A stretch of DNA of 64,000 bases from Deltaproteobacteria bacterium HGW-Deltaproteobacteria-8 (GTDB lineage: Bacteria; Desulfobacterota; Desulfovibrionia; Desulfovibrionales; Desulfovibrionaceae), in the NCBI GenBank assembly GCA_002840405.1, contig PHAR01000001.1, positions 454,320-518,319 of the forward strand, given 5' to 3'. Positions 52,945 through 54,926 of this stretch are shown one piece after another. Made by a program: the position numbers and the translations under genes. The notes under the pieces are model-generated. The model did not search any database, was not told the origin of the DNA, and worked only from the letters and a program-made list of their open reading frames with translations. How positions within the stretch are numbered: position 1 is the first letter of the stretch; each line of letters opens with the position of its first letter.

Positions 52945-54303
52945 TCAGGCGAGGAGGCGGTCCACGGTGTTGCCGAGCTGCCTGCCCAGCGGAGTCTGGT
53001 GGGAAATCTCGCGCTCCACGTGGATGATGCCCTTGAGCACCGTGGAATGCTTGCGACCGAGGCGGTCGCCGATGGCGGCGAGGGAAAGGTCGGTGTGGCG
53101 GCGGCAGAGGAAGAAGGCGGTGTTGCGGGCAAGGACGGTCTGCTGGCTGCGACTTTTCGATTTCAGCTCGCGCTCGTCAATGCCGTAGCTCTTGCAGACA
53201 AAGGCCACGATGCGCTCCACGCCCGGCATGGGGGTCTGCACGGCGTAGTTCTCCAGAACCTGCCAGGCCAGCTCCTCAGTGATCTGCTGGCCGAGCAGCC
53301 GGGCCTTGAGCACCAGGTTGTTCAAACAACTCTCAAGCTGGCGGATGTCTGTGGTCAGGCGCTCGGCCAGAAGCCCGGTGACGTTGTCCGGCACCTGGAC
53401 CTGGAGCGAGCGGGCCTTGCGGCGGATGATCTCCTCGCGCGTGGCGTAGTCCGGGGCCTGCATCAGGGCCATGAAGCCCGAGGCGAAGCAGGACACGAGC
53501 TGCGGGTCGACGTCGGAGAGCTCCCGGGGCAAAAACGAGCTGGTGAGCACCACCTTGCAGCCGCGCTGCTGCAGGGCCTTCAGGGTCAGCAGCAGCTCTT
53601 CCTGGAGCTTGCCCTTGCCCTGGAAGAAATGGATGTCCTCCAGGAGCAAAACGTCCACGGAGTCGCGGAACTCGGCCTTGAAGCGCGCAGCCTCCTTGGC
53701 CTTGATGGCCAGCACCAGGCGCGTGGTGAACTCCTCGGCCGAGAGGCAGGCTATGGAGACCCGGCTGCGGTTGGAGCGTTCGGCCAGGTGGCGGCCGATG
53801 GCGTGCAGCAGGTGGGTCTTGCCAAGGCCCGGCCCGGCGCTGAGGAAAAGGTGGTCCGTGGCCAGAGAGTTGTTGCAGATGCCCTTGGCCGCAGCGCAGG
53901 CCAGCTCGTTGCAGGGGCCGACCACGAAGTCGTCGAAGCGGAAGCGCCAGCGGCTCAGGGATTCGGTCCGGGGCGCATGCCCCAGGGGCAGGGCCAGGGA
54001 CTCTGTGGCCGGGGGAGGCCGGGTCTGGGCCAGATTCTGCTGAGGAACCTGGATCACCGGGCGGCGCTGGCCCACGCTGACCACGATCTCGGTGCGGCGG
54101 CCCGTAAGCTCCAGGGCGGCCTCGCGGATGGTCTCCAGCAGTCGGTCACGCACCCAGGCGGCCACAAACTCGTTGGGAGCGGACAGGTGCAGGACATTGT
54201 CCTGGACCTTGGCGTCGAGCGGCTTGATCCAGAGGGTGAATAACCCCTGTTCCAGGCGATTTTCGAGGATGGGAAGCAATTTTTGCCAAAGGTCCGCGTT
54301 CAT
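52945..54303 (-). CDS. dnaA: Divergent DnaA-family replication-initiator paralogue
   Basis: A 452-residue protein with the whole DnaA layout: domain I (WQKLLPILENRLEQGLFTLWIKPLDA), a linker, an AAA+ domain with Walker A AGPGLGKT (156-163), Walker B LLLEDIHFF (219-227) and sensor II Arg321, and a C-terminal helix-turn-helix. Two features differ from normal DnaA. The box VII arginines of RLKSRF are replaced in QLVSCF (Gln268, Cys272). The GGRDHTTV DNA signature is LGRKHSTV (415-422), one residue shorter with Asp to Lys. It is probably a second DnaA with a changed role; a standard copy should exist elsewhere. The ATG at 54303 gives the usual domain I start. Confidence 0.88.
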   Translation of the reverse strand: MNADLWQKLLPILENRLEQGLFTLWIKPLDAKVQDNVLHLSAPNEFVAAWVRDRLLETIREAALELTGRRTEIVVSVGQRRPVIQVPQQNLAQTRPPPATESLALPLGHAPRTESLSRWRFRFDDFVVGPCNELACAAAKGICNNSLATDHLFLSAGPGLGKTHLLHAIGRHLAERSNRSRVSIACLSAEEFTTRLVLAIKAKEAARFKAEFRDSVDVLLLEDIHFFQGKGKLQEELLLTLKALQQRGCKVVLTSSFLPRELSDVDPQLVSCFASGFMALMQAPDYATREEIIRRKARSLQVQVPDNVTGLLAERLTTDIRQLESCLNNLVLKARLLGQQITEELAWQVLENYAVQTPMPGVERIVAFVCKSYGIDERELKSKSRSQQTVLARNTAFFLCRRHTDLSLAAIGDRLGRKHSTVLKGIIHVEREISHQTPLGRQLGNTVDRLLA

Positions 54304-54926
54304 GTGGTAGGGTCTACGCTTTGGACGCTCCAGGGACAATCCTGGCACAGGCCGGAACCAGTCCAGGACAGACCGCTGTTTTCTACAACATAACTATCCG
54401 ACTTTATTGCGTTCATAAGTTCCAAAAGGAGTACAGGGCAAAACGAATACGTACTCGGAACGCCTGCACCGCCTAGGTTAAGCTACTGCTCACGCCGAAC
54501 TTTGGGAAACCTGTGCAAACTTTTATAAACATACACAAGTACGTTTTTCGACGAATTACGAAAAATAAAATGGAATTTCACCGCTGGCCACAAACTGGGT
54601 AGGCATGAAACCTGTGAAACATTTCGGATTGCGGATGTCTTACCACCAAGTCCGCGCCTGCTCACGCTTGGCGGCATGAAGCCCTTCCTGGCCAATTCTC
54701 CCGGCTTCCCACATACCAACGCAAGTTGACAAAAATTGTCTGTCTGGTGGCCTGGTTACGCAATGGCAGGCAATGAACACCGGCAACTGGCGGCAATGCC
54801 GCGCAATTTTCAGCCAGGGGTCCGGGATGCCTTGCGCGACGTGCATTGAAGAAATAATCTGTGGGGATAGCAGACCAAATTGGTTCTTTCAATTGCATGA
54901 GCGGAATGAAGCGATGTACGCCGCAG
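54304..54926. other. 623-bp AT-richer intergenic region upstream of dnaA paralogue
   Basis: The longest gene-free stretch, visibly richer in A+T than its flanks. Only one near-match to a DnaA box was found (TTATAAACA, 54523-54531), with no cluster, so it is not a convincing oriC. It holds a TTTTTCG/CGAAAAA inverted repeat (54544-54565) and a GACAA-AAA-TTGTC palindrome (54728-54740). Short open frames here look non-coding. It probably carries the promoter of the dnaA paralogue. Confidence 0.6.

Follow-up and report, generated by a model that had tools for sequence, protein, structure and literature searches.

Gene A and its product

The analysed window, a 64,000-nucleotide stretch of contig PHAR01000001.1, carries a gene for an A-type DnaA (gene A), whose features are compiled in Table 1 together with box-like sites upstream of it. 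The predicted protein passed the Pfam cut-offs for DnaA_N, Bac_DnaA (129.8 bits) and Bac_DnaA_C. It missed the TIGR00362 equivalog cut-off of 343.9 with a score of 340.4 (3.5 bits short), and since the second DnaA of the same genome, B (see below), missed it as well (299.9 bits), this cut-off separates neither copy from DnaA.

Table 1. Features of gene A and of its upstream region, in positions of the window
Feature	Position	Strand	Basis
Gene A (A-type DnaA, 452 aa)	52945..54303	minus	open reading frame, ATG at 54303
Domain I, residues 4-63, W6 kept	54115..54294	minus	Pfam DnaA_N, 47.9 bits; W6 in 42/42 group A proteins
AAA+ domain III, residues 120-278	53470..53946	minus	Pfam Bac_DnaA; AlphaFold2 model versus 8bv3
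Walker A, GPGLGKTH	53812..53835	minus	alignment
Initiator-specific helix pair, residues 189-215; V211 and R227 equivalents kept	53659..53739	minus	residue table, model
Walker B, LLLEDIHFF, with Glu for the first Asp (as in 42/42 group A proteins)	53623..53649	minus	residue table
Box VII, QLVSCF, with Q/C as R281/R285 equivalents	53485..53502	minus	alignment
Sensor II arginine R321, kept	53341..53343	minus	alignment, residue table
Domain IV helix-turn-helix, residues 362-426	53026..53220	minus	Pfam Bac_DnaA_C, 75.9 bits
Altered box-recognition motif, LGRKHSTV	53038..53061	minus	alignment, residue table
One-mismatch DnaA-box-like site GTTTGCACA, upstream of A	54512..54520	minus	genus-conserved; counts not above shuffles
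One-mismatch site TGTTTCACA in TGTTTCACAGG	54613..54621	minus	TGTTTCACAGG identical in four genus-mates

The first-pass annotation described a DnaA in which all domains, both Walker motifs and sensor II were kept. This is correct for domains I, III and IV and for Walker A and the sensor II arginine, which are intact, but the first Asp of Walker B has become Glu (LLLED versus LLIDD). The Walker B sequence and the change of sensor-1 D269 to Ser had been overlooked; L290 is replaced by Phe.

The two motif replacements that had been pointed out, RLKSRF by QLVSCF and GGRDHTTV by LGRKHSTV, were borne out by alignment. With the DnaA proteins of B. subtilis, T. maritima and A. aeolicus as references, Q268 and C272 of A fall on the positions of E. 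coli R281 and R285, so that box VII R281 and the arginine finger R285 of DnaA are Q and C in A. When aligned to solved DnaAs, B. subtilis RLRSRFEWGL is paired with QLVSCFASGF. No shifted or compensating arginine was found near box VII in the same three-DnaA alignment, which disposes of the possibility, raised in the annotation, that the arginines were displaced but present; the arginine of PREL is the counterpart of the usual K/R in PKE. In the recognition motif GGRDHTTV is aligned with LG-RKHSTV, that is, one G is missing and D433 is changed to K. We share the expectation that DNA reading and ATP-dependent assembly of A are altered. As R285 varies even among orthologues that are the sole DnaA of their genome, its loss makes it less probable that A works like E. 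coli DnaA, and does not weaken its descent from DnaA.

The motif for single-stranded DNA binding (H/B) is present, with V at 211, K at the 245 equivalent and K243 kept. In the AlphaFold2 model of A (pLDDT 87) Walker A and Walker B are separated by two helices in tandem, which is a mark of initiators, and domain III superposes on that of B. subtilis DnaA (8bv3) with an rmsd of 1.5. All four genus-mates and another five named relatives share QLVSCF without variation, which excludes a sequencing error. Within the genus, dN/dS was 0.09-0.31 for A and 0.11-0.14 for B; gene A is under purifying selection. The loss of conserved catalytic residues could be taken for the mark of a decaying relic, a reading that we consider extremely improbable and refuted by conservation: the frame is open, dN/dS is low, the model shows a confident DnaA fold, and the gene is kept nearly everywhere in the order.

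Paralogue B and the position of oriC

The genome that contains the window (13 contigs, 3.51 Mb), which its nearest named relatives place close to Humidesulfovibrio, encodes exactly two DnaA-type ATPases, A and B, and no Hda-like ATPase was detected in it. B (429 aa, about 25% identical to A) is encoded within a dnaA-dnaN-gyrB-gyrA cluster, directly downstream of two strict TTTTCCACA boxes; it has the box VII sequence LRSRLEGGL and the recognition sequence GGKDHSTV, and its Pfam DnaA_N match is below the cut-off. Gene A is a paralogue, as had been proposed, with a canonical-type dnaA found elsewhere beside dnaN-gyrB-gyrA. In genus g16 B is short (open frame of about 335 aa) and no longer has the arginines of box VII (L059/L106 in G119, L105 in G149); both DnaAs are without the finger there, the A copies carrying Q or H.

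GC skew, which was sampled and not computed cumulatively over whole genomes, changed from minus to plus at B, not at A, in the complete genome G129. The same flip at B, not at A, was seen more weakly in the genome of the window. From these observations B is the most likely site of oriC, whereas A lies elsewhere, and A was rejected as an oriC marker on the same grounds. In the complete or near-complete genomes G114, G129, G121, G065, G044 and G029 the numbering of contig C1 starts at gene A. Several chromosomes are thus numbered from A, yet GC skew places the origin of G129, the one checked among them, at B, which affects origin annotation.

Distribution and ancestry of A

DnaA-type ATPases were found in 148 of 150 genomes of the order Desulfovibrionales, a group of sulfate-reducing bacteria; most of these genomes have two, and 106 genomes yielded a group A protein. 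Drafts G077 and G079 gave a single weak match each, A being apparently absent; G097, a 99% complete draft, had no DnaA of either type, probably because of an assembly gap. In the FastTree phylogeny the 42 sampled A proteins of the order formed one clade, separate from the B clade and nested with 17 DnaAs of other Desulfobacterota (path support 0.86-1.0, with one node at 0.13). In several genomes of other Desulfobacterota, including the single-contig G177 and G187, an A-like protein was the single DnaA match. In its own genus, as well as in g7 and g8, A stands in synteny with cdsA-dxr-rseP-tsaB. We conclude that A is an anciently diverged, vertically kept and near-universal protein of the order, and not a recent, decayed or mobile copy.

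Capture and domestication of a plasmid or phage initiator, which the first-pass annotation had suggested, would agree with the low identity of A to B (only about 25%). It is scarcely credible for a protein that occurs in all sampled families of the order, is nested in a phylum-wide DnaA lineage and keeps its tsaB-rseP-dxr-cdsA setting in several genera; in the ORF survey no mobile genes adjoined A. No description of a second DnaA or of a Desulfovibrio oriC was found in the open-access papers searched.

Two peculiarities were noted among A-type sequences. L379 (G051:C14:53662-54708), from a 43%-complete draft of family f3 (f1-f6 are working family labels), is an A-type dnaA with eight in-frame stops (3 TAG, 5 TAA) and may represent a pseudogene, an assembly fault or unusual coding. 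In the A-like DnaAs L279 (G227), L281 (G177) and L284 (G221) of other Desulfobacterota, some of which are the only DnaA found, the second acidic residue of Walker B is G or K, which suggests that ATP hydrolysis was lost.

Genomes with A and without B

A was present without B in seven genomes of family f5, one of them a single contig and 99% complete, in seven f2 genomes of good assembly and in one f1 genome. In ten A-only genomes dnaN and its upstream DNA could be located; there gyrB follows dnaN, and dnaA-B is absent. In f2 the gene for a GKAVV[VL]NA protein, which is upstream of dnaA-B in G129, is now directly upstream of dnaN, showing that dnaA-B was cleanly lost. Genus g28 of family f3 was withdrawn as an A-only case because dnaN was also missing from those assemblies.

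In f5 box VII reads LLASQF or QLASQF, thus both arginines are absent. The arginine finger has been called invariant, and alanine mutants of the Synechococcus, Helicobacter and Deinococcus DnaAs were abolished in unwinding (PMC8287927); the finger is described as a requirement of DnaA for both assembly and unwinding (PMC8287927, PMC5742627). Against this background a finger-less sole DnaA is unexpected, and in f5 a DnaA without the arginine finger appears to be sufficient. A natural lineage that dropped the finger several times, once as a family's only DnaA, offers a direct test of a finger-less AAA+ initiator.

From the A-only genomes we infer that A would initiate chromosome replication. The opposite reading, in which B alone initiates and A acts solely as a modulator of replication or as a transcription factor, takes its strength from the genome of the window, where A is far from oriC and lacks the box VII arginines and D433. 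We hold it to be quite improbable, since A is the sole DnaA in f5, f2 and f1 lineages in which dnaN is present and dnaA-B cleanly missing, and since the ssDNA-binding motifs are kept in the A copy; these genomes contradict it unless an unrelated initiator operates there. Accordingly, the modulator or transcription factor role of the first-pass annotation is not supported, given that at least three lineages have an orthologue of A as their sole DnaA. The annotation had also considered that A might be the only dnaA of its genome: this is not the case in its own genome and is so in relatives, some of which lack both arginines. For the A-only genome G010 the sampled GC skew was too noisy to place the origin, which counts against the initiator reading.

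Complementary losses in A and B

Residues with roles known for E. coli DnaA (PMC5742627) were tabulated for 42 A and 32 B proteins of the order and for 17 A-type proteins of other Desulfobacterota. The A proteins keep W6 (42/42), V211 (as V/I), the AID-1 arginine R227 (41/42), K243 (42/42), R334 (42/42) and R399, and position 245 is basic, mostly K; changed are R281, R285 (16/42), L290, D269 and D433. B keeps D235/D236, R285 (30/32), L290, R334 and D433 (30/32), together with the Walker motifs and sensor II, and has lost V211, R227 and K243, W6 being mostly K. The middle segment of its AAA+ domain is shorter, and two short helices remain there in the B model. Judged from the residue table, A and B are eroded in a complementary manner, each keeping what the other has lost, at least for these residues.

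Among the 106 A proteins 68 have Arg at the R285 site and 38 have other residues; on the A tree at least seven changes fall on this site. The notion that A loses the arginine only where B is present was rejected, as f5 has only A, yet lacks the arginine. The sole A of f5, without both arginines, shows that the finger of B is not the general reason for the loss and that another interface must work there. In genus g7 the arginine is kept in both A and B, which counts against a shared finger as explanation.

D269, which has changed in A, is reportedly (2006 work by Kawakami) the sensor-1 residue concerned in ATP/ADP binding by E. coli DnaA. Its loss and the failure to find Hda suggest a different control of initiation. 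In E. coli DnaA, sensor 1 contributes to the very tight binding of ATP and ADP (PMC5742627).

Box sites upstream of A and at dnaN

No strict DnaA box is present in the window, in agreement with the earlier statement that no DnaA-box cluster is nearby, and the number of one-mismatch boxes in the A promoter region was not significant (P 0.056). In other genera strict boxes do occur upstream of the A ortholog. Upstream of A, 74 strict TTWTNCACA sites were observed versus 8.1 expected, often paired, 21-22 bp apart. Of the 91 genomes not known to lack B, 38 carry TTTTCCACA upstream of A, with 48 sites in total (in the box counts for B-bearing genomes, here and below, some genomes were assigned by B-type setting alone). 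That the absence of B is the cause of missing TTTTCCACA sites upstream of A is suggestive, phylogeny being a confounder.

At dnaN of the ten A-only genomes there was no TTTTCCACA site, and all ten had TTWNGAACA. This word was spotted post hoc in f5, and the f2 and f1 A-only genomes served as the held-out set; their dnaN-upstream regions contained 11 sites versus 0.73 expected. The dnaA-B/dnaN gaps of genomes with both genes had 18 sites, in 16 of 50 genomes (some, as said, assigned by setting), versus 0.93 expected. In the genome of the window the site is TTTCGAACA, at about position 10377 of L063, in the dnaA-B/dnaN gap. A scan of the 16 TTWNxyACA words placed GA at the top at dnaN and CC at the top upstream of A. 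Genome-wide, TTACGAACA was not enriched over the control, and only the position near dnaN stands out. In L175 of G090, a reduced genome of 1.5 Mb with A only, TTACGCACA/TTATGCACA sites are mixed with TTACGAACA upstream of dnaN, perhaps reflecting relaxed box reading.

Because A-only genomes have only A, these comparative counts point to A as the natural reader of TTWNGAACA. What counts against this explanation is that each origin has few such sites and that they could be bound by another protein.

Canonical boxes upstream of gene A also bear on the possibility that A is the sole true initiator order-wide and that B is a box-binding regulator, either a repressor of gene A or a titrator, left at the old dnaA locus. 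The losses of W6, V211, R227 and K243 in B, its DnaA_N match below the cut-off, its absence in at least three lineages and its decay in further ones would all suit a regulator. The near-invariant finger, the Walker motifs, sensor II and purifying selection (dN/dS about 0.12) are, however, more than a simple repressor needs, and we regard this possibility as rather unlikely.

Discussion

Taken together, we think it reasonably probable that A is a working chromosomal initiator of changed box specificity, which melts oriC beside dnaN and coexists with the dnaN-linked B. The altered recognition helix of A would read TTWNGAACA near dnaN rather than TTWTNCACA. Melting would depend on the conserved H/B and AID residues, and domain I would recruit the helicase. 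In genomes that have it, B probably contributes the arginine finger and the binding of canonical boxes; its targets would be TTTTCCACA sites, including the ones that control gene A.

The two proteins might also assemble jointly. A mixed A/B filament may be capped by B, so that the finger of B touches the ATP bound to A, and provision of the finger in trans would leave A's own finger free to decay. As both copies have lost D269 and no Hda-like ATPase was detected, initiation would not be governed by a tight ATP/ADP switch like that of E. coli. The fuller form of this proposal is a split, two-subunit DnaA with two box alphabets, in which B contributes TTTTCCACA binding and the finger, A contributes TTWNGAACA binding at dnaN, melting and helicase recruitment, and some lineages live with a finger-less single DnaA; we put it forward tentatively, as a possibility more doubtful than not. 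If true, bacteria would have here a counterpart to multi-subunit initiators, a pair of DnaAs whose losses complement each other and whose boxes seem to differ.

Like the E. coli and B. subtilis DnaAs, A has four domains, Walker A, sensor II, the H/B ssDNA motifs, the AID-1 Arg, Lys243 and Arg399, and its domain III fits 8bv3 closely. It differs from them in lacking the box VII arginines, in the ED of Walker B, in the changes D269 to Ser, L290 to Phe and D433 to Lys, in not being encoded beside dnaN, and in the presence of a second DnaA. Hda/HdaA is related to DnaA domain III, but Hda has no domain IV, which A possesses, and with TIGR03420 (Hda) A scored 71.8, far below the cut-off of 194.8. 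T. maritima DnaA resembles A in having a recognition motif without GGRD (NRSHPVV). That protein reads its own tma-type boxes and, in contrast to A, keeps the arginine finger, at position 251 (PMC10316083). The A-type proteins of other Desulfobacterota (e.g. L277-L289, L354-L356) belong to the same clade, mostly have an E-first Walker B, have mostly lost the first box VII arginine and, like A, lack GGRD; R285 is kept in 17/17 of them, whereas the A proteins of Desulfovibrionales are often without it.
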